Assembly: GCA_002706765.1 (NCBI GenBank)
Contig: PAJV01000006.1
Location: 30,422 to 94,421, forward strand
Length of the DNA: 64,000 bases
Direction of reading: 5' to 3'
From: Gimesia sp.
GTDB taxonomy: Bacteria; Planctomycetota; Planctomycetia; Planctomycetales; Planctomycetaceae
Under the pieces are notes generated by a model, which had not been told where the DNA came from, did not search any database, and saw only the letters and a list, made by a program, of their open reading frames with translations. Shown here one piece after another: positions 6,867-18,193 of the stretch (within the stretch, counting starts at the first letter, position 1; each line of letters opens with the position of its first letter). The translations under genes and the position numbers were made by a program.

Positions 6867-8483
6867 TCAGTTTTCGGCGTTCTGGTCATCACTGCTTGTG
6901 ATGTTGACCGGAAACAATGGTAACAGGGTTTCTTCGACCAGCGAAGCCGGGGAAATACCTGTTACCAGAAACAGCAGTAGCGTGGGGGCAAATGCCAGGC
7001 AGGCGAAGAGCCGGTGCTCCTGGTCGGGTTCCGGTGCGTTTTCCTGAGGCACTGGACTGTCTGCAGCAGTAGCGTTCATCAGTTGCCAGAATCCGCGAAT
7101 CAATGCCAGTTGAAACAACAGGTGACCTGCCATATAAAGCAATGCCAGCAGCAGGTTGTCCTGTGCCAGGTTCCATAAAAAGGCAAACTGTACTGTAAAA
7201 CCACCCAGCCCGGGGAGCCCTGCCAGTGTGAGAATTAAAAAACCGGCCACCCACAACAGCAGTCGATGGGGATTTTCGGTGACTTTTTGTGAAAGTACCG
7301 GGATCACCAGCAGCAACAGGCAACATGCCAGCCCCTGAATCACATTCAAAAAAGTCAAATTCGCAAGCGTGGCAGGATCTGCAGCGGACAGCAAAGTGAG
7401 CGTTAATGCGGACTGACCCAGCAGGTAGCAGAGGATGCTCTGCACCAGGCCCCCGCGGCTTGCCAGCAGAGACAGGTACAGAAAACCACACATTCCCCAG
7501 AAGCTGATCACCGTTGAGATGCTCTGCACAGCCGAATGATTTAAGGGGATTATAAATCGCAGCACACCATACATGCTGATTTTGGTGAATAAAGCCAGCA
7601 GGACCAGGCACCAGATCGTCTGACCGGGCGTATTCAAAGTAGAACCAGAATCCTGTTTGATCCATTGGGTTAGACTGTAGTGGACCGGGAAGATGGCCCC
7701 TTTGATAGTGAAACCTGTGATCAGAATCAAAAAAATCCAGGGAGAGATCGTGCTCCAGTAGGTTTCTGCCAGTGGAAACAACGCGACATCATTTACGGTA
7801 CCTTGAAGAATTTCATGAAACTGATATGAGACAGGCTGGGGTGTTTCCAGCAGCAGACCCTGCATTCGGGTATAACCGGTTGAAGCCAGTAACAGTCCGG
7901 CAATAATGAATGCATCTCCCAGGAACTGCAGATACATGGTGCTTTCCAGCAGACGGATCGAGCGCGAACCGCTCCAGATACGAACCAGGCAGAGCATGCA
8001 GATAGTGGATGCCAGCAGGAAGGTGGCAAAGCTGACCAGGTCATAAGACACAAACACTCCCGCCAGAAAAGACTGCAGAAGCAGCAACAGAAAATAATGC
8101 CCTCTTGATTCCACTCCCCTGCGCCGGGAAAGCAGGATCAGCACCGGCCACAGACAGGTGGGCAGCAGCAGAAACCAGAGGGACACGCGGTCTATCGTCC
8201 ATTGAAAACGACGCGGCGTTTCTCCCTCTGACTGATCCGTTTCGGCTGCAGGGAGTTTGAGAGTAATGGAAATGGCACGAGTGGGACTTTCCGCTTTCAA
8301 CGCGGGAGCTGTCAGCACTGTGGCCAGAATCAGGCAGGAGATCAATGTATTGGAAAATGCGGTCCAGCGGTTGAACTCCAGGCCCAACTGGGAGATTCCC
8401 CAGCCAAAGCAGGCACCTGCAATCGGCATGACGATCAGCAGCGCAGGCGACAATGAGATCAGAGAGTTCAGAAACGAATTCAT
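6867..8483 (-). CDS. Complex I antiporter-like subunit, NuoM/NuoN-like (divergent)
   Basis: The protein has about 538 residues and roughly 14 membrane segments. It is the last gene of the six-gene complex-I-like cluster, in the position of nuoM. The core GFTIKGAIFPVHYSLTQW (TM7-like, Lys about 261 from ATG 8483) and FTKISMYGVLRF (TM8-like, Lys about 301) match NuoM/MrpD proteins. The TM5 glutamate normally found in a W-E pair is absent: the region reads SYDLVSFATFLLASTICML. The ATG at 8483 is preferred to the in-frame TTG at 8501. It may be a proton or cation translocator, or a structural relative; its activity is uncertain. About 150 bp containing a hairpin separates it from the preceding gene. 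Confidence 0.75.
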   Translation of the reverse strand: MNSFLNSLISLSPALLIVMPIAGACFGWGISQLGLEFNRWTAFSNTLISCLILATVLTAPALKAESPTRAISITLKLPAAETDQSEGETPRRFQWTIDRVSLWFLLLPTCLWPVLILLSRRRGVESRGHYFLLLLLQSFLAGVFVSYDLVSFATFLLASTICMLCLVRIWSGSRSIRLLESTMYLQFLGDAFIIAGLLLASTGYTRMQGLLLETPQPVSYQFHEILQGTVNDVALFPLAETYWSTISPWIFLILITGFTIKGAIFPVHYSLTQWIKQDSGSTLNTPGQTIWCLVLLALFTKISMYGVLRFIIPLNHSAVQSISTVISFWGMCGFLYLSLLASRGGLVQSILCYLLGQSALTLTLLSAADPATLANLTFLNVIQGLACCLLLLVIPVLSQKVTENPHRLLLWVAGFLILTLAGLPGLGGFTVQFAFLWNLAQDNLLLALLYMAGHLLFQLALIRGFWQLMNATAADSPVPQENAPEPDQEHRLFACLAFAPTLLLFLVTGISPASLVEETLLPLFPVNITSSDDQNAEN

Positions 8484-8568
8484 ACAGGACTCAAAATACA
8501 AAGCTAAGTAACGACTAGAGAAAACAGTATCAGGCTAGAGCCACGAGCGCATCACATTTAACCATAGC

Positions 8569-8610
8569 GTCTCTCCATCTAGGATACTCGGACCAGATGG
8601 CCCTGGAGAC
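8569..8610 (-). promoter_or_regulatory. Imperfect hairpin between the NuoL-like and NuoM-like genes
   Basis: CCATCT and AGATGG flank a 14-base loop, and the stem extends imperfectly with GTCTC/GAGAC. It lies in the only large gap (about 150 bp) of the complex-I-like cluster, so it may attenuate or process the message. It has no T-tract and no clear terminator character. Confidence 0.3.
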
Positions 8611-8633
8611 GCCACAGTAAAACTGGACACAGT

Positions 8634-10508
8634 CTAAATCTGCAGAACCATCAGTACGAAGATGAGGATCGATAACGTAAAGATCAGAACCAGAGTCGGG
8701 AAGGCTGTCTGTCCGTTTTGCATATGACTTAACAGCTGTCCCCAGAACCGGGGCAGTTTCTCCAGTGTGCTGCGACTTAGTACTCCTGTCAGCCAGCTAT
8801 CAAGAAAGGTCACGCTTTTAACCAGCAATTGCGCCGGTTGAATTACTGCGCGACTCAGAAGATCCAACGCATGGTAATGCGTCTCCCCCAGATGCAGCAG
8901 ACTGGAAGCCGCGCGTTGCGTTCTTGCTGCTCTGTTTCTGGGAGCCGTCATCCAAGCCAGGATTAACGCTACCAGTACGGCTAGAAAATAAAACGAACAG
9001 AACAGCCAGTCACGATCAAAAGGACCCGGTCCCGAACTGATCAGCGGGGACTGCCAGAACTGGGGTACGAATGGCAGCGGGAACAGCGTGACAGCCGTCA
9101 ACAGGCAGACCAGTCCGGTGGTGATCCAGAGCAGGAAGCGGGGAAAAGGGCTGCTGGAATTGATAACTGTCTGCCGGGACAATGCGAAATAAAAGCGGGT
9201 CAGTCCAAAGAGATAAACCCCAACCAGGGGCAGTATCAGCCAGAGGAGAACCTCATTCCGTAACCCGGGAGAGGTCGCGCGTGCTGTAATCAGAGGATTG
9301 AGTAAGCCTCCCAGATTGATGATGACTGCGGTCAGCAGCAGAAGCAGGCACACTCGTAATGCAGGCAGACTGGCGGCGGGAATTGCCTGCTCTCGTTGCC
9401 AGCAGACCAGCGACAGGAGAAGCGACAAGACACAGGTTTGCACCACGATCACTGGCAGCAGATCCGTGATGCTCTCCAAACCGTTGAAGCCCAGCGTGGC
9501 AACGATGATTCCCGTCAGAGTGGCTGCCAGCCAGTTTAAACATCGATCCCATGCTTCACGTCTCATCAGGCAGCAGGCGGAAAAGCCCGTGAGGAATGCG
9601 GAGACCATCGCCAGTTGAGAGACTAAGGTCCGTGTCGCGTCAATCGTCAATAACAGGGGGGCACAGCGTATTAATAAAAATAATCCTGCAGGCATCGCCA
9701 GCAGGTTCAGCGCTGCCAGTGAGAGAGCGGGCCAGGGGCGGGGATTGCTGATCACCAATGCAGACGCAGGAAACAATCCCAGGCGAGGCACTGCTGCCAG
9801 AAAGAGTGTGACTCCTATGCCGGGTAAGGCGACACGGTTTTGTATATGAACTGCCTGGATCGCAGCAGGCTGTAATGTTTTCAAAAAATCCAGAGAGGAA
9901 AAACTGGAATGTATCAGAAATACAGTCAGCAGGAGCATCGCATCAGAAAATGCACTCCAGCCCCACCAGTGTCGATGGACCGGTTCTGCTGCCGACGAAC
10001 TCTGAAAATTCACTTCATGCAGCAGATTCAGATTGATTGAGAGAATCATCCAAAAGAAAAACAGTTCCAGGAAATTGGCCGACAGTACAACTCCGATCGC
10101 GGCACTGAATCCGAACAGATACAGCGGCCACGAATAACGGCGGTCGGAAACAAATTCGTTACCAGATTTCGGCCGTAATAGCAGGAAAAATAACGAAGCC
10201 AGTGAAATTAATCCATAGAATGCCAGGCTCACCGGATCGAACAAAACATCGATCTGTAGTTGAGGATCCCCCTCCCCTGCAAGGGGCAGCCAGTTCAGCA
10301 ATCTCAGCGAATAAGCCTGCTGCGTAAGGCGGGAACCGAAAAAACAGAGACAGGTCACCGAGACGAGTGAAGTCAGAGCAACACTAGTCACTATCAGCCA
10401 GCGCGGATTGCCTCTCAACAGGCCATAGGTTACCAGCGCAGCAATCAGCAGCATCACAAACGGTGTGATCAGACTTAATTGCAGCAGCACTGTGGTTATT
10501 TTATCCAC
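8634..10508 (-). CDS. Complex I antiporter-like subunit, NuoL-like (divergent)
   Basis: The 624-residue polytopic membrane protein has IDVLFDPVSLAFYGLISLA near residue 86, matching the NuoL start of the antiporter core. Its C-terminus (LDLLSRAVIQPAQLLVKSV then a final membrane helix after NGQTAFPTLVLIF) resembles the lateral-helix tail of NuoL. Family residues for proton transfer are missing: the TM5 W-E pair reads FFWMILS (Met about 154), and where G-K-S-A-Q is expected in TM7 the sequence is AAVPRLGLFPASA. It overlaps the K-like gene by 8 bases. Known NuoL pumps protons; this copy may be structural or carry out something else. MrpA is a less likely alternative. Confidence 0.75.
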   Translation of the reverse strand: MDKITTVLLQLSLITPFVMLLIAALVTYGLLRGNPRWLIVTSVALTSLVSVTCLCFFGSRLTQQAYSLRLLNWLPLAGEGDPQLQIDVLFDPVSLAFYGLISLASLFFLLLRPKSGNEFVSDRRYSWPLYLFGFSAAIGVVLSANFLELFFFWMILSINLNLLHEVNFQSSSAAEPVHRHWWGWSAFSDAMLLLTVFLIHSSFSSLDFLKTLQPAAIQAVHIQNRVALPGIGVTLFLAAVPRLGLFPASALVISNPRPWPALSLAALNLLAMPAGLFLLIRCAPLLLTIDATRTLVSQLAMVSAFLTGFSACCLMRREAWDRCLNWLAATLTGIIVATLGFNGLESITDLLPVIVVQTCVLSLLLSLVCWQREQAIPAASLPALRVCLLLLLTAVIINLGGLLNPLITARATSPGLRNEVLLWLILPLVGVYLFGLTRFYFALSRQTVINSSSPFPRFLLWITTGLVCLLTAVTLFPLPFVPQFWQSPLISSGPGPFDRDWLFCSFYFLAVLVALILAWMTAPRNRAARTQRAASSLLHLGETHYHALDLLSRAVIQPAQLLVKSVTFLDSWLTGVLSRSTLEKLPRFWGQLLSHMQNGQTAFPTLVLIFTLSILIFVLMVLQI

Positions 10509-10869
10509 CAGAGTCTGCTCCCTGATCAGAAAAGGTGCGATACGGCGACTCGGCCTCTGATACTTCTTCCCGTTCCATCTGCGGCAACTCTCGTGACCGA
10601 CGCGATTGAATAATCAGGAATGTCAGCATGCTCAACAGCGGCAACAGAAACAGGACGATGATCAGAAAGAAAAGATTACCGTTCCACGCACCCCGCGACT
10701 GACCATCTGCGGCACAGATCAGACCGGCTCCCTGCAGCCAGAGCAGTAAAGAGAAGACCATGGAAAAGGCATTCCGCTGCAGGAGCATGCCCAGGAAACC
10801 CAATGCGATCAGGAGTACCGCAACCAGAAATTGATTGTGTAGCAGGGCAACCGAAGTCAGTAGAATCAT
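10501..10869 (-). CDS. NuoK-like membrane subunit lacking both conserved glutamates
   Basis: This is a 122-residue protein with three membrane segments. It aligns without gaps to E. coli NuoK with an offset of six residues (ALGFLGMLLQRNAFSMVF against VLGLTGLVIRRNLLFMLI). The two channel glutamates of NuoK, E36 and E72, fall on Leu42 and Leu78 here. The C-terminus is a hydrophilic tail of about 30 residues beyond the usual length. The start overlaps the J-like stop by four bases (ATGA), so translation is coupled. The assignment rests on order, size and the QRN/Gly pattern. Confidence 0.72.
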   Translation of the reverse strand: MILLTSVALLHNQFLVAVLLIALGFLGMLLQRNAFSMVFSLLLWLQGAGLICAADGQSRGAWNGNLFFLIIVLFLLPLLSMLTFLIIQSRRSRELPQMEREEVSEAESPYRTFSDQGADSGG

Positions 10870-11627
10870 GGTCTGCCTCCCCGTTCATCAGAAATGAAAC
10901 GCGTGATTCCCACAAAGCTGATCAGCACAAATAAGAGCAACACGATCAAAGTCGGCCAATGATCCGTTAACAGTTGTCTTACCAGCAGCAGACTTTCCAC
11001 CTCGACGGCAGCAGGCTCGGGTCTCAGTCTGGTCGTGGGACCCCACTCACGATGGATCACCCACAGAAAACCACACAACAGCAGGCCACAAGACAGGCAG
11101 GCCAGGAAGGGCTCACGAAACGGTCCTTCCGGGTCAGCATCCTCTGCCGATGATTGCTGGATGGAAATTCCTCGAAAGACCATCAGCAACAGCATCCCCC
11201 CCGCCGTCAGCCAGCAGAGCAGAACCAGGGGCAGGATGTCAGCCTGCAGTAACAGCATCCCGCTGCCGAGGAATGAAATCGCAGCCGCTGTCAGAGACCA
11301 TTGTAAATCGGAAGACAATACCGCTGCTCCTCCGAAACCGATCACGAGCAAACCGACAAGGAATGGACTAAACTGCGCGATCAGCGCCGGGATGCCGCTC
11401 TGACCTTCTGCAAAGATTGGTTGCCCGAACCAGTAAAAGAAAATGCAGACTGATAACAGAGACAGCGCGGGCCAGCCCCAATGCAGCTTCGTCGCCTCCA
11501 TTCTCTGATGAGTCTGCAGATTCAGATATCCATAGATGCCCGTAATCATCAACAGCACCAGCACCACCATTGTCATAAACAACAGGTTGTCACCCGTGCC
11601 AGGCAGATAAAATCTCAAGTCATCCAT
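10866..11627 (-). CDS. NuoJ-like membrane subunit
   Basis: The protein has 253 residues and about seven membrane segments, longer than usual for NuoJ (about 165-185). The central part (GFGGAAVLSSDLQWSLTA, then LLQADILPLVLLCWLTAGG and MLLLMVF) follows the NuoJ pattern of a short helix, the loop that opens the pi-bulge helix and a V/L-rich segment. The first 100 residues appear to be an extra region of two or three membrane helices. It lies 33 bp after the H-like gene and overlaps the K-like gene, as in nuo operons. The conserved tyrosines of NuoJ TM3 are not seen. Confidence 0.62.
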   Translation of the reverse strand: MDDLRFYLPGTGDNLLFMTMVVLVLLMITGIYGYLNLQTHQRMEATKLHWGWPALSLLSVCIFFYWFGQPIFAEGQSGIPALIAQFSPFLVGLLVIGFGGAAVLSSDLQWSLTAAAISFLGSGMLLLQADILPLVLLCWLTAGGMLLLMVFRGISIQQSSAEDADPEGPFREPFLACLSCGLLLCGFLWVIHREWGPTTRLRPEPAAVEVESLLLVRQLLTDHWPTLIVLLLFVLISFVGITRFISDERGGRP

Positions 11628-11660
11628 TCTATATCTGATCTAAAAATAAGAGGAATCAAA

Positions 11661-12671
11661 TCAGTTTTTCACGGTCGTCGTCGATGGGAGACTGGCTTTC
11701 GGCAGCAGAAATCCGGCCCACATCGCCAGCAGGCTGAAGTTCAGCAGCACATGCATCAGGGGATCTGACATCCCCAATACATGAAAGGCAACAAATGAAG
11801 CCGTTAATGAAATCAATGCCAGCCACAGCGTCAACTTCCACAGACGTTCCGGGTCAAAGCCACTGCGTTTCTGGAGAAAGACCTTCAGCCGCAGTATAAT
11901 GACCAGTAAAACCAGAATCGTCACTACCTGGATTGTCATTCTTCCGATTTCCAACCCGGCACTCTTCTCGATCAAAGGAAAAAAACAGCTGCGACTGATG
12001 ATGAGCGGCACCAGGACCAGCAGTCCGATCAGCATTCGCAACTCGCGAATCCAGTTTTGCACCGGGCTCACCCGGCGATCAGGACAGGCGTTGATCAGCA
12101 AATAAGGTCCAGTCCAGGCAAGAAAAAATCCGAGAGTTCCTGCAGGTTGTAAGACACTCAGCCAGAGTGAAGTGTGGCCACCCTGCGCTGCATGACTGGA
12201 ATAGATCGGTACATAAGCAATAACTGCGGCCCAGGCGAGTAACAGGGGCAGCCAGAAATAACCATTCAGTATCAGCGAAATCGAGGGAATCCGTCGCCGC
12301 TCCGTGACTGCCAGGCTGACCTCACCGGCGATCTGCAGCAGCGTGAACAGCCCCAGAAGAAGCAGGGGGCCAAAGCGACTCGTCATCAGCGCCGCTTCGG
12401 TGGCTGCTTCATCAGTGTGCATGCTGCTATGAGTATAAATCAGAGGCACCAGACTGAATGTCAACAGGCTGCACAGCAGCGAGAACAACAGCAGGCACCG
12501 TTCTGATCGATTTCGCAATCGGTTCTGCGCGTGAGAAATCCGCCTGACAGAGCAGATGACTTGCGCTTTGAAACCCGTTTCAGTCAGGGGATAGGCAGTC
12601 TCCGCCAGCCTGAATGAGAGTATCAGGATTCCTGGCAACAGCAGAACCAGAATCAGCAGTGGCACCGCCAT
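11661..12671 (-). CDS. NuoH-like membrane subunit (strongly diverged)
   Basis: The 336-residue polytopic protein has the length of NuoH. The best family match is the C-terminal third, where LRLKVFLQKRSGFDPERLWKLTLWLALISL resembles (in pattern) the arginine loop and WK-lPL helix of NuoH. The acidic loops that line the quinone-binding chamber are poorly kept and the Q-R-x-GPN signature near the N-terminus is not recognisable. With no NuoB/NuoD in the neighbourhood, normal quinone reduction is unlikely from this cluster alone. It shares base 12671 with the upstream gene's stop region and is clearly co-transcribed. Confidence 0.55.
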   Translation of the reverse strand: MAVPLLILVLLLPGILILSFRLAETAYPLTETGFKAQVICSVRRISHAQNRLRNRSERCLLLFSLLCSLLTFSLVPLIYTHSSMHTDEAATEAALMTSRFGPLLLLGLFTLLQIAGEVSLAVTERRRIPSISLILNGYFWLPLLLAWAAVIAYVPIYSSHAAQGGHTSLWLSVLQPAGTLGFFLAWTGPYLLINACPDRRVSPVQNWIRELRMLIGLLVLVPLIISRSCFFPLIEKSAGLEIGRMTIQVVTILVLLVIILRLKVFLQKRSGFDPERLWKLTLWLALISLTASFVAFHVLGMSDPLMHVLLNFSLLAMWAGFLLPKASLPSTTTVKN

Positions 12672-13114
12672 CAGGAACGCTCCTCAAATTCTGGTGTGCG
12701 CGTGATGACTGATTCGTCAGTGGCTGGACTCTCACAGTGAGCAGCGAAACCCGAGAGAGGTGAACCTGACGCTTGCTCTCTGAAGGACAGCATACCGGTC
12801 CAGAACGCCATTCCCCAGATCAGCAGCATTCCACCGGCGAGTGTCATCGTCACCGGGTGATTCCAGGCTGCAGTCTGCATGGTGATCCCCAACACCAGCA
12901 GCAGCGCTGGCACAACAATCAAGACTGCGGTAAAATTCCAGTACAGTTGCCGCTCTGTTTCTGTTCGAGAAAACTTGTCAACCCGTACCGTGGGTTCCGG
13001 GGGGACCTCCTCCATGTCTGGAGAACTGCGAAATCCGATTTTGATCGTGAACCACACAGCCAGTGTGCAGCCGACGGCGAACAGAAAATATTTCAGAAAG
13101 AAAAACCAATCCAT
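12671..13114 (-). CDS. Small three-helix membrane protein at the NuoA position
   Basis: The 147-residue protein has one membrane helix at residues 4-25, a hydrophilic loop of about 40 residues, and two more helices around 60-80 and 90-110, the topology of NuoA. The NuoA hallmarks (the ESG/ECG cysteine-like loop and F-D-V-E) are absent, so I infer the match from topology, length and its position as first gene of the cluster. Its ATG at 13114 has only a weak ribosome-binding site. An unrelated small membrane protein is a real alternative. Confidence 0.45.
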   Translation of the reverse strand: MDWFFFLKYFLFAVGCTLAVWFTIKIGFRSSPDMEEVPPEPTVRVDKFSRTETERQLYWNFTAVLIVVPALLLVLGITMQTAAWNHPVTMTLAGGMLLIWGMAFWTGMLSFREQASGSPLSGFAAHCESPATDESVITRTPEFEERS

Positions 13115-13346: not shown

Positions 13347-13721
13347 ATGTTAACGAACGAACCAGGTATATTGATATTTGTTTATGGAACGTTAAAACGG
13401 GGCTACTGCCGCGCGCACAATCTGCAAGGCCAGACCTTTCTCTCTACAGCTGAAACCACGGCCGAGTATACCATGTATCATTGTGGCACCTATCCCGGCC
13501 TGGTCATCAATCAGGTGGATGGCATCAGTATTCACGGGGAATTGTGGCGCGTTGACAGCAGAGCACTCGAACTTCTGGACGAAGTGGAAGGCGTTGCCGA
13601 GAACCTCTATCGGCGCGGTCCGATTCAGCTGTTGCAGCCGGTGGTCTCAGAAATGGTACAGGCATACTTTTATCAGAGATCTGTCAATGATTTGCCGGTG
13701 ATCGGGGATAACTGGTTCTGA
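13347..13721 (+). CDS. Gamma-glutamylcyclotransferase-family (AIG2-like) protein
   Basis: A 124-residue protein with the family's opening motif IFVYGTLKRGYCRAHNL at residues 10-26, which forms the substrate loop, and the glutamate of LLDEVEGVAENLYRR (about 82) that acts as general acid/base in characterised members. These enzymes release 5-oxoproline from gamma-glutamyl amines or peptides, but many bacterial members have unknown substrates. It is read divergently from the complex-I-like cluster, across about 230 bp that must hold both promoters. Confidence 0.88.
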   Translation: MLTNEPGILIFVYGTLKRGYCRAHNLQGQTFLSTAETTAEYTMYHCGTYPGLVINQVDGISIHGELWRVDSRALELLDEVEGVAENLYRRGPIQLLQPVVSEMVQAYFYQRSVNDLPVIGDNWF

Positions 13722-14513: not shown

Positions 14514-16199
14514 ATGTCAGGAACTGAATCAGTGAAGGTTGTTATCGTAGGAGGAGTCGCCGGCGGCGCCAGTGCCGCTACGCGGGCCAGGCGCTGTAAT
14601 GAAGACGCAGAAATCATTCTGTTCGAGAAAGACGAATACGTTTCCTTTGCCAATTGTGGTCTGCCTTATTATATTGGCGGGGAAATTACCGAACGCAGTA
14701 AACTGCTTGTTGCCACCCCGGAACTTTTCAAAAACCGCTTTAATATCGATGTTCGCACGAAACACCTGGTGCAGTCCATTGATGTCGAACATAAATCGGT
14801 TTCTGTGTTGAACCAGGAGACGGGCGAAACTTCTACAGAAACCTGGGACCGACTGATTCTTTCTCCCGGTGCCGCTCCCATCGTCCCGCCACTGCCGGGC
14901 ATCCAAGCGCAGAATGTATTCACACTGCGGAATCTGAATGATACGGATGCCATCAAAGACTATATCGAATCGCATAACTGTCAGCGGGCCGTGGTGGTGG
15001 GGGCCGGGTTTATTGGCCTGGAAATGGTCGAGCAACTGCATCACCTTCAAATGCAAACCGATCTGGTTGAACTGCAGTCACAGGTGCTGCCTCCCCTCGA
15101 TCCCGAGATGGCACAGTTAATCCAGAATGAACTCACGTCCCATGGCGTCAAAGTGCATCTGGGAACGGCTCTGGAAAAGGTGAATGTTGAAAATGAAACA
15201 GCAGTCGCCGTCGAACTGGGAAATGGGACGACGATTGAGACTGATCTGATTATTCTCGGAATCGGCATAGCACCGGCAACGGGACTGGCGAAAGACGCCG
15301 GCCTGGAAATCGGAAAGTCCGGCGGCATATCCGTCAACGAATTCATGCAGACCTCCTGTCCCGCAATTTACGCCGTGGGTGATGCTGTTGAGTACATGCA
15401 TGGCGTGTTGATGCAGCCCCTCCGCATTCCACTTGCCGGACCCGCGAACCGCGCCGGGCGTATCGCCGGTCAGCACGCGGTGACGGGCTCTGCCGATCCC
15501 ATGATGTCTCCCGTTGGTACCGCCATTGTCCGCGTATTCGGACTCACCGCCGCCATGACCGGTTTGAGTAAAAAGTTGGCAGAAAAGACAGAGTGCAAAA
15601 ATCGTTCTGTGATCGTCGTTCCCAAACATCACGCCGGCTACTACCCGGGCGCCGAATCGCTGTTCCTCAAGTTGACGTTTAATCCTGAAACAGAGCGGGT
15701 TCTGGGCGCCCAGGCGGTCGGAAAAGCAGGCGTCGATAAACGCATCGATGTCATCGCGACGGCTTTAAAATTCCGGGCATCGATCCGCGATCTGGCTGGA
15801 CTCGATCTCGCGTATGCACCCCCGTTCGGCTCAGCCAAAGATCCCGTACACATCGCCGCTTTTGTAGCCGGCAACGATCTGGACGGCCTCGCCTCCATCG
15901 TGGAAGTCGATGCTGAGCTCGATGAGTATCAGATTCTCGATGTCAGAACCGATAAAGAAGTGGAAGACTTCCGCTTTCCGAATATCATTCACATTCCCGT
16001 CGATGAACTCCGCCAGCGACTCTCAGAACTCGATCCCGAGAAACCGATTGTCACGGTCTGCCATACCGCCCTGCGGGCCTACATCGCGACCCGCATTCTT
16101 AAGCAGTCTGGCTTCAAAGACGTCCGCAATCTCACTGGCGGCATGCTGATGCAACGCTATGCCCGTCCGGAACTGTTTGAATCCAATCAACCCGGTTAA
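14514..16199 (+). CDS. CoA-disulfide reductase / NADH oxidase-like flavoprotein with C-terminal rhodanese domain
   Basis: A 561-residue fusion. Residues 7-40 bind FAD (VVIVGGVAGGASAATRARR), Cys48 in YVSFANCGLPYYIGG is the single active-site cysteine of CoA-disulfide reductases, VVVGAGFIGLEMVEQL starts the NAD(P)H domain, and PAIYAVGDAVE is the second FAD motif. The dimerisation domain follows to about 450. Residues about 470-555 form a rhodanese domain (YQILDVRTDKEV, active loop VTVCHTALRAYIA). CoADR-rhodanese fusions reduce CoA disulfides/persulfides and in some bacteria act in elemental sulfur metabolism. It is a single gene with about 235 bp upstream. Confidence 0.9.
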   Translation: MSGTESVKVVIVGGVAGGASAATRARRCNEDAEIILFEKDEYVSFANCGLPYYIGGEITERSKLLVATPELFKNRFNIDVRTKHLVQSIDVEHKSVSVLNQETGETSTETWDRLILSPGAAPIVPPLPGIQAQNVFTLRNLNDTDAIKDYIESHNCQRAVVVGAGFIGLEMVEQLHHLQMQTDLVELQSQVLPPLDPEMAQLIQNELTSHGVKVHLGTALEKVNVENETAVAVELGNGTTIETDLIILGIGIAPATGLAKDAGLEIGKSGGISVNEFMQTSCPAIYAVGDAVEYMHGVLMQPLRIPLAGPANRAGRIAGQHAVTGSADPMMSPVGTAIVRVFGLTAAMTGLSKKLAEKTECKNRSVIVVPKHHAGYYPGAESLFLKLTFNPETERVLGAQAVGKAGVDKRIDVIATALKFRASIRDLAGLDLAYAPPFGSAKDPVHIAAFVAGNDLDGLASIVEVDAELDEYQILDVRTDKEVEDFRFPNIIHIPVDELRQRLSELDPEKPIVTVCHTALRAYIATRILKQSGFKDVRNLTGGMLMQRYARPELFESNQPG

Positions 16200-16989: not shown

Positions 16990-17970
16990 TCAAGGAGTCG
17001 GCTGCAAAACACCAATCAACCGCTCGACTTCTCGATCAAATACGGCAGGGTCACTTTCGTTTTCCTGGAAATCAGCGGCGACTCGATTGCAGAGTGTTTC
17101 TTTCTGCTGATGCTCCCAATCGTTAAACAGATGCTGATCCAGATTCAGAGGCAGCAGCGAATGTATCACGTTGGTATCCCGTTTAAATTCACGGTCTTCG
17201 TTATCAAACGCGCGTTCAATTTCCAGGTCAACCCAGTCGCTCTGCAGGGAATACTGGGAAGCACACAGCAGCACCTTATCCAGGATCTTCATACCCCGTT
17301 TGATGGGGGTTCCCGCCGCGTGCTGGGTCTGTTTTTCATCCAGCCAGCAGCGAATACCCCGCGCTTGCAGAGCAGCGTAGAGTCGCTCTGCAAAGGCAGC
17401 ATCTTCCGGGCTGTAACAGATGAAACACGAAAAGAATTCCAGGGCCGTCTGTTCGAAATGCCCGGCGATGTATTCAATCAACTCATCCGAAAGTCCACAG
17501 CCTCGCAGAAACTGGCTGGGAATATGCCCTTTGGAACTCATCAGCGTATCCATGCCCAGCGTGCTGGGACCCCAGTGTGAAACCGTTTCCAGGTTCACAG
17601 CACGGGACAGATCGACGTTCACCCACAGCGTGTTTTGAGAACGTGCCCCGTTAAAATCGACTTCGCGCAGATTGGAGCCGTGAAAATTAACCCAGCTCAA
17701 ATCCGTATTACACAAATCCGCAAAGCACAGGTCGGCTTTTTCCAGGTTGGCTCCGGCGAGATTCGCTCCCACCAGGTCGGCACCGCTCAGGTCAGCTCCG
17801 ATTAGAATTGCACCACTGAGATCCGCGCCCACCAGATTCGTTTCTGTCAGGTCAGCACCGCTCAGGTCAGCACCGCTCAAATCGGGTTTGACATCCGGGT
17901 TCTCTGTCCGCCAGCGATCAATCGATACAGCGCCGGTTCGAAACACATCTACATATTCAGGATTCGCCAC
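16990..17970 (-). CDS. Pentapeptide-repeat protein with C-terminal TIR domain
   Basis: About 326 residues. Residues 30-125 are pentapeptide repeats of the A(D/N)LxG type ([20 protein letters not shown]), which fold into a right-handed beta-helix. A linker follows, then a TIR domain from about residue 180: [20 protein letters not shown], a CWLDEKQ segment and [15 protein letters not shown], whose Glu (about 250) aligns with the NADase glutamate of TIR domains. Two adjacent GTG codons could start it; 17970 has AGGGGAG at good spacing. TIR proteins in bacteria signal in defence or cleave NAD, and pentapeptide-TIR fusions have no firmly established role. Stand-alone gene. Confidence 0.88.
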
Positions 17971-18193
17971 AACCACTCCCCTGGACCAAATGAAATAAAA
18001 CCGGATCCCATTCTGACAACGGCACCGGAGAACTGCAATTCACTACACAACGGTTCTGTAAAAGCAGTCAAGTCTTAACAGAATTCAGCGAAATGAAAAC
18101 GAAGCATCAGTCACTTCGAATGTAAGATGTTGATTTTCACCGGTAAAGGGAGGCCTTCAATGAAATCGAGCCGAACTTGTTTGCGGTAACAAA

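Follow-up and report, generated by a model that had tools for sequence, protein, structure and literature searches.

A complex I-like membrane gene cluster without an electron-input arm in Gimesia, probably retained for a role other than pumping

Complex I of the respiratory chain is usually thought to have been built from a membrane module and a hydrogenase-like module, and a locus that carries genes of the first without those of the second raises the question of what such a membrane arm is for. We examined this question on a 64,000-nucleotide stretch of a Gimesia sp. genome (contig PAJV01000006.1 of assembly GCA_002706765.1, positions 30,422 to 94,421; hereafter the window), in which six co-directional open reading frames (ORFs) on the minus strand, at 6867-13114, read as nuoA-, H-, J-, K-, L- and M-like genes. 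With the electron-input half and many proton-conducting residues seemingly lost, the encoded complex probably no longer takes part in normal respiration. We consider it likely that the cluster specifies a headless, redox-free complex I membrane arm retained for a new, probably non-pumping role. For the broader proposal, that Gimesia and several other Planctomycetaceae share a membrane arm without an electron-input arm, with a function unrelated to redox-driven pumping and stemming from one planctomycete complex I lineage that was repeatedly reduced, the evidence seems to us evenly poised.

The source genome (G000; 7.9 Mb, 100% complete by tool estimate) carries the six genes in close packing. 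The first encodes an A-like protein of 147 amino acids (aa) (12671..13114, minus strand, as for all six) with three hydrophobic stretches recognized by eye; it is followed by genes for an H-like protein of 336 aa (11661..12671), a J-like protein of 253 aa (10866..11627), a NuoK relative of 122 aa (10501..10869), a NuoL relative of 624 aa (8634..10508) and a NuoM relative of at most 544 aa (6867..8501), for which the start position conserved among relatives makes the ATG at 8486 the probable start. Genes A and H overlap by 1 base, J and K by 4 and K and L by 8, with gaps of 33 bases between H and J and ~130-150 bases between L and M. No candidate for NuoB, C, D, E, F, G or I was found among the ORFs between the six cluster genes. 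A preliminary description of this stretch had reported six co-directional genes without genes for hydrophilic subunits, as borne out by the ORFs and by the same order in 14 further loci, and had named conservation across planctomycetes as a check: the cluster recurs across Gimesia, and related membrane-only clusters exist in some other genera. Searching with the L protein, we found a relative in 16 of the 17 genus genomes, and the A-H-J-K-L-M order is intact in 15 (the window plus 14 fetched loci); of the remaining two, one is broken by a contig end inside L and the other, 74% complete, gave no L match.

Four of the six proteins fall into Nuo families, as the proposed hidden Markov model (HMM) comparison could establish with Pfam, NCBIfam and hhalign. 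K passes the Pfam cut-off for Oxidored_q2 (4.1e-7), the sole convincing Pfam match among the six, and the NCBIfam models NuoM (2.4e-23), NuoL (7e-16) and NuoK (3.2e-5) match M, L and K, respectively, all under the curated cut-offs. In hhalign profile comparisons against eleven Nuo families, among which there is neither a NuoA nor an Mrp profile, L pairs with NuoL at 99.8% over 602 columns (runner-up NuoM, 68%), M with NuoM at 99.8% (runner-up NuoN, 97.3%) and K with NuoK at 97.6%, while J pairs with NuoJ at 77%, rising to 94.6% with a broader NuoJ set. About 90 residues precede the NuoJ-like part of J, in line with the extra length noted previously for this protein. Its structure prediction was unusable (predicted local distance difference test, pLDDT, 46). 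In searches of PDB sequences, the M and K profiles retrieved complex I chains and the L profile gave no match at 0.001.

An additional subunit is encoded apart from the cluster. The third PF00361 match of the genome, a 390-aa protein on contig C37, scores 98.1% against the NuoN profile and at most 5.3% against five other Nuo families in hhalign, and NuoN is its only NCBIfam match (4.7e-5, under the curated cut-off). About the first hundred residues of NuoN are missing from it, as judged from the Pfam and NCBIfam coordinates. Once this protein had been identified, a loss of NuoN from the genome was discarded. Farther along this strand, 795 bases downstream, comes a sugar kinase gene; in a J-K-L-M-N cluster of another genome, G051 (locus L058, the same as L176), a kinase 70% identical to it overlaps the nuoN end; among 182 sequences, many of them overlapping, the kinase occurs at these two places only. 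K, L, M, J and the unlinked N are thus Nuo homologues whose pairing is subunit-specific, more weakly so for J.

The identity of H had to be approached differently. H, J and A gave no convincing match to Pfam or NCBIfam models, and their profiles retrieved nothing convincing from PDB sequences up to E 10. The AlphaFold2 model of H (pLDDT 70.5; predicted template modelling score 0.74) gave, among its best 50 Foldseek matches, six with a probability above 0.5, and all six are complex I chains named H, D1 or N1, which we took as NuoH/ND1 from the chain names: E. coli chain H (0.99, 0.97 and 0.96) and eukaryotic chains H (0.84), D1 (0.80) and N1 (0.89). The remaining rows do not exceed 0.16. An H-profile search of 392 genomes of the phylum returned 10 genus members and a weak match in G402 (E 0.0046, 50 columns), its negatives being weak since five candidates per genome were scored (three in another search).

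A cluster in a further genome, G023, provides a bridge to canonical subunits. This locus (L137) consists of an A-like gene, named from position and size alone, followed by H, J, K, L, M and N, and no NuoB-G or NuoI match occurs within the 18 kb fetched. Its H matches the NuoH profile at 96.3% (hhalign; E 1.8e-9, 248 columns) and its J the NuoJ profile at 97.6%; the H frame matches PF00146 weakly (E 5.1e-4; 28.5 bits including neighbours) and is 28% identical over 163 columns to NuoH of G046 (locus L055; E 5e-9). The loop of NuoH marked by PFDL..ELV..EY faces the quinone site and the hydrophilic arm. Compared with G046 NuoH, the bridge H is missing ~20 residues in the region of this conserved loop, a motif of 21 letters, and the same loop appears short in the Gimesia H model. 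As the direct sequence match between Gimesia H and NuoH is not significant, the identity of H rests on fold, position and bridge, from which we infer that H derives from NuoH. Protein A perhaps derives from NuoA, to which position and size tie it: it scores ~1% or less against the Nuo families compared, a set without a NuoA profile, it has no convincing Pfam or NCBIfam match, and E. coli NuoA as a query gave no match in one search of the fetched loci and was not among the queries of later locus searches. Overall, the assignments of J, K, L, M and N are well supported, H has good support as a probable NuoH, and A is a candidate NuoA.

We then asked where electrons could enter. Neither NuoD (PF00346) nor canonical NuoH (PF00146) has a match in the source genome; of the 61 genomes sampled in the family, 58 have a NuoH match and 56 a NuoD match. 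The two Gimesia genomes sampled (G000 and G038) and G018 have neither, and G012 and G036 lack NuoD only. The single NuoB-type match of the source genome (PF01058) adjoins a [NiFe] hydrogenase large subunit on contig C18 which is most like those of NAD(P)-dependent sulfhydrogenases, under cut-offs. Such a distribution has to be weighed against a split complex I, in which a donor gene at another locus, undetected or unrelated, would provide the membrane arm with electrons. The family often has H-J-K-L-M-N apart from NuoD (~0.6 Mb apart in G004), NuoN itself is unlinked in Gimesia, and NuoC, E, F, G and I are not covered by the genome-wide searches, all of which would suit a split enzyme. Nevertheless, a donor encoded elsewhere, as the preliminary description had envisaged, is very unlikely in our view, because NuoD is absent, the sole NuoB-type protein sits beside a hydrogenase large subunit and the NuoH loop is partly lost in the bridge cluster and short-looking in the Gimesia model; the majority of the published pump residues, moreover, have disappeared or been altered (see below).

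Two observations adjoin these searches. G018 is a 99%-complete, single-contig genome of the family with only one short-frame match to the divergent L profile. The hydrogenase region (L079; G000:C18:66000-85999) holds large and small [NiFe] hydrogenase subunits, an FAD/NAD-binding-like subunit and maturation-like genes, some of them named by eye.

NADH oxidation seems to be provided for by another enzyme. The source genome has adjacent nqrA to nqrF (nqrABCDEF), all six over an NCBIfam cut-off, and this complete set makes Na+-NQR the likely NADH dehydrogenase of Gimesia, other NADH dehydrogenases not having been searched. PF03116 (NqrB/RnfD) is over the cut-off in 16 of the 17 genus genomes. NQR has likewise been put forward, in a comparison of planctomycetes, for a Stieleria strain in which nuoL alone was detected (PMC11588811).

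Could the membrane arm still pump? E144, H254, H338 and K342 of NuoL are functional residues. The proton-path residues of E. coli named in PMC9271201 are K229/D178, K399 and D400 for NuoL; E144/K234, K265, H322 and E407 for NuoM; K217/E133, K247 and K395 for NuoN; and E36/E72 for NuoK. In Gimesia L, D178 is kept, K229 is replaced by R, K399 is lost, D400 is mostly lost, and E144, H254, H338 and K342 are lost as well, the alignment of the most diverged parts of L being uncertain. K has lost both glutamates, E36 and E72. The C37 NuoN keeps E133, has lost K247 and K395, and carries at position 217 an R that is also present in several canonical NuoN proteins of planctomycetes. M has K234 and K265 in each of the six rows used and has lost E144, H322 and E407. 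Taken as a set, most of the proton-path residues of K, L and N thus appear lost or changed in the alignments, which speaks against the canonical proton or sodium translocation previously suggested, M keeping two lysines. Among columns conserved in 90% or more of the 30-31 canonical rows, charged positions kept in the six Gimesia rows number 1/3 in K, 5/21 in L and 7/17 in M, and other positions 4/12, 22/102 and 26/73, respectively. Charged columns are therefore lost at about the rate of other conserved columns, and the pump residues have not had the special protection that a working pump would call for. Note that alignments A7 and A8 use six Gimesia rows, that A1 excludes L076, which is cut by a contig end, and that A3 (K; 13 rows) excludes the K proteins of L063 and L073, whose frame overran a stop.

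The two lysines of M also bear on whether the cluster could be an Mrp-like cation/proton antiporter without redox input. Its membrane-only make-up with antiporter-like subunits resembles Mrp, which likewise has no redox arm, and K matches the NCBIfam model of antiporter subunit C weakly (0.0073). No Mrp model is over its cut-off for any subunit, however, and the best NCBIfam models are those of NuoL, NuoM and NuoK; NuoL and NuoM are the partners of L and M in the comparison without an Mrp profile, L and N have lost their distal lysines and K both of its glutamates, and the predicted fold of H is NuoH-like. In Mrp a counterpart of NuoH is absent, according to PMC7419157, whereas Gimesia H is probably such a counterpart. 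We rejected the Mrp assignment of the cluster and give an antiporter of this kind little chance of being the right explanation. Of the earlier view of a reduced complex I-like system distinct from Mrp, the distinction stands and the H-type subunit is probable, and pumping of protons or sodium is not upheld.

Loss of pump residues at the general rate would also fit a complex I remnant that is slowly decaying and no longer has a function, and the rates of change can be read in this way: the six cluster proteins are 36-59% identical to those of more distant genus members vs 52-93% for neighbours, and the ratio of nonsynonymous to synonymous substitution rates (dN/dS) of the cluster is above that of most neighbours. 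In five close genome pairs, which are not independent as three share genomes, the dN/dS of the six cluster genes is 0.045-0.347; for six neighbour genes it is at most 0.12 in 25 of 29 comparisons, reaching 0.38 in the gene at 13347. The cluster proteins are thus under purifying selection yet mostly evolve faster than their surroundings. Decay should bring stops and deletions, whereas the six genes are intact and ordered in 15 of 17 genomes, dN/dS stays well below 1 for all six in the five pairs, related clusters persist in other genera, and the neighbours at 13347 and 13758, which have known domains, diverge about as fast as the cluster. A functionless relic is accordingly improbable, and the suggestion that the cluster reflects divergence rather than decay agrees with the intact ORFs and the dN/dS range.

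Divergent clusters of this kind, Gimesia included, occur in seven of the 58 genera sampled, selected matches having been inspected. Divergent L genes without hydrophilic neighbours lie in K-L-M (G010), J-K-L-M-N (G051) and A-like plus H-J-K-L-M-N (G023) clusters, and in G056, where L-M-N were found; in G012 and G014 divergent L and M lie at contig ends, and L138 and L139, likewise at contig ends, may have further neighbours. The residue changes seen in Gimesia recur in part: K229 is replaced by R in 5 of the 6 non-Gimesia divergent L proteins, and both glutamates are lost in the 3 K proteins of related clusters compared (3/3). Retention varies, with L137 keeping E144 of L, L049 and L137 keeping E144 of M, and L141 keeping E407 of M. 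In the L and M trees (24 rows each, three of them from Gimesia), the nine divergent and Gimesia rows all share one side of a branch that has 99% Shimodaira-Hasegawa-like approximate likelihood ratio test (SH-aLRT) support, next to the complex I sequences of G046, G057 and G008. Among canonical proteins, those of these three genomes also score best with the divergent L profile.

A membrane-only locus is in itself not rare in the family. Nine fetched loci (L143-L148 and L150-L152), belonging to another complex I of the family, show H-J-K-L-M-N with no linked hydrophilic match and NuoD elsewhere. The notable feature of Gimesia is that NuoD and canonical NuoH have no match anywhere in the genome and that coupling residues are lost as well. 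The preliminary description, which had taken the missing hydrophilic genes as the oddity, was right about the cluster and is to be corrected on this point; the genome search that it proposed yielded no NuoD and one NuoB-type protein, next to a hydrogenase. Among other loci inspected, L116-L121, L123, L128 and L130 contain nuo operons that include hydrophilic genes and are either complete or truncated by the stretch end, L122 is a K-L-M stretch near canonical NuoK/L/M, and L061 has no nuo-like gene set around its match. L126 and L127 have no E, F or G matches, L125, a short contig, carries H to L, and L124 and L129 hold a lone NuoL match; all of these loci were set aside as ordinary.

The headless membrane arm that we favour could have arisen as follows. 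A former complex I would have shed its electron-carrying hydrophilic arm while the membrane arm stayed; the membrane subunits would still assemble into a membrane complex, and NADH oxidation would have been taken over by Na+-NQR, leaving a complex without redox drive and without canonical proton pumping. Its present role, the least certain step, may be that of a passive or regulated complex, either a scaffold or a restricted ion pathway via M, where both central lysines are kept.

Several observations weigh against this reading. The Foldseek matches of H have E values of 0.022-0.44, none at 0.001 or below, and TM-scores of 0.39-0.50; Gimesia H alone reaches 0.9-1.2% against the NuoH profile and less than 1% directly against the bridge H; and merging the two H proteins raises the score against NuoH from ~1% to 27%, inside the noise gauge of 32-39% set by A and K of the Gimesia cluster scored against each other. 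Protein A matches neither the compared Nuo subunits nor the bridge A-like protein. The C37 NuoN is known from the source genome alone and stands apart from the kinase instead of overlapping it, by the 795 bases given above. The genome-wide negatives cover NuoH, NuoD and NuoB, and NuoC, E, F, G and I, absent from the cluster, were not searched genome-wide. Charged columns are lost no faster than other conserved columns; K234 and K265 of M, D178 with R229 of L, and E133 with R217 of N remain, so that some ion-path chemistry may persist in M, L and N, as far as the alignments tell. Finally, the trees have very long branches, and the program cautions that some joins may be spurious.

Compared with known systems, the cluster is closest to respiratory complex I (NDH-1, Nuo), to whose subunits J, K, L, M and the unlinked N are individually homologous and with which it shares the NuoH-like predicted fold of H and a gene order equal to a nuo operon minus B-G and I. 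It differs in having no detected hydrophilic arm, in the change of most path residues, in an extended J and in a shortened, unlinked N, and the bridge H in its partly missing loop. The 11-subunit complex I, which has no NADH module and includes the Fpo type, is likewise a reduced complex I, and it retains B, C, D and I; Gimesia has no NuoD, and its sole NuoB-type match is a hydrogenase subunit. What the 11-subunit form lacks is E-F or E-F-G only, according to the parts seen of a 2025 HMM survey (PMC12361115), which puts the species whose complex I is incomplete at 2,171; in those parts the membrane-only type is not described, and a text search for 'planctomycet' found none. We found no publication on a membrane-only complex I in planctomycetes among the matches listed, subscription literature lying mostly outside the search. 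As for membrane-bound hydrogenases (Ech, Mbh, Hyf), there are no hydrogenase large or small subunits in the cluster.

The inorganic carbon transporter DAB also has a NuoL/M-like subunit without a redox arm. It differs in needing the partner DabA, for which there is no match among the six cluster proteins; a separate DabA locus exists on contig C68 (L043; G000:C68:78000-96000), where a DabA of 1041 aa has two NuoL/M-like neighbours (463 and 493 aa), an arrangement that resembles an inorganic carbon transporter. This PF00361 pair was considered as Mrp and rejected, as it adjoins DabA.

If the headless membrane arm is real, the modular assembly of complex I appears reversed in the Gimesia lineage, the redox arm having been shed and the membrane arm kept under selection, and a redox enzyme would have been turned into a stand-alone membrane machine. 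The cluster makes it testable whether a membrane arm can function without electron transfer, and, as a natural experiment, it can help to tell the membrane residues needed for structure from those needed for pumping.

Beyond the neighbours mentioned above, a gene at 14514-16199 of the window, on the opposite strand, encodes a pyridine nucleotide-disulphide oxidoreductase with a rhodanese domain and lies near the cluster in 12 of 15 Gimesia stretches, and the gene at 16993-17976 encodes a protein with pentapeptide repeats and a TIR domain.

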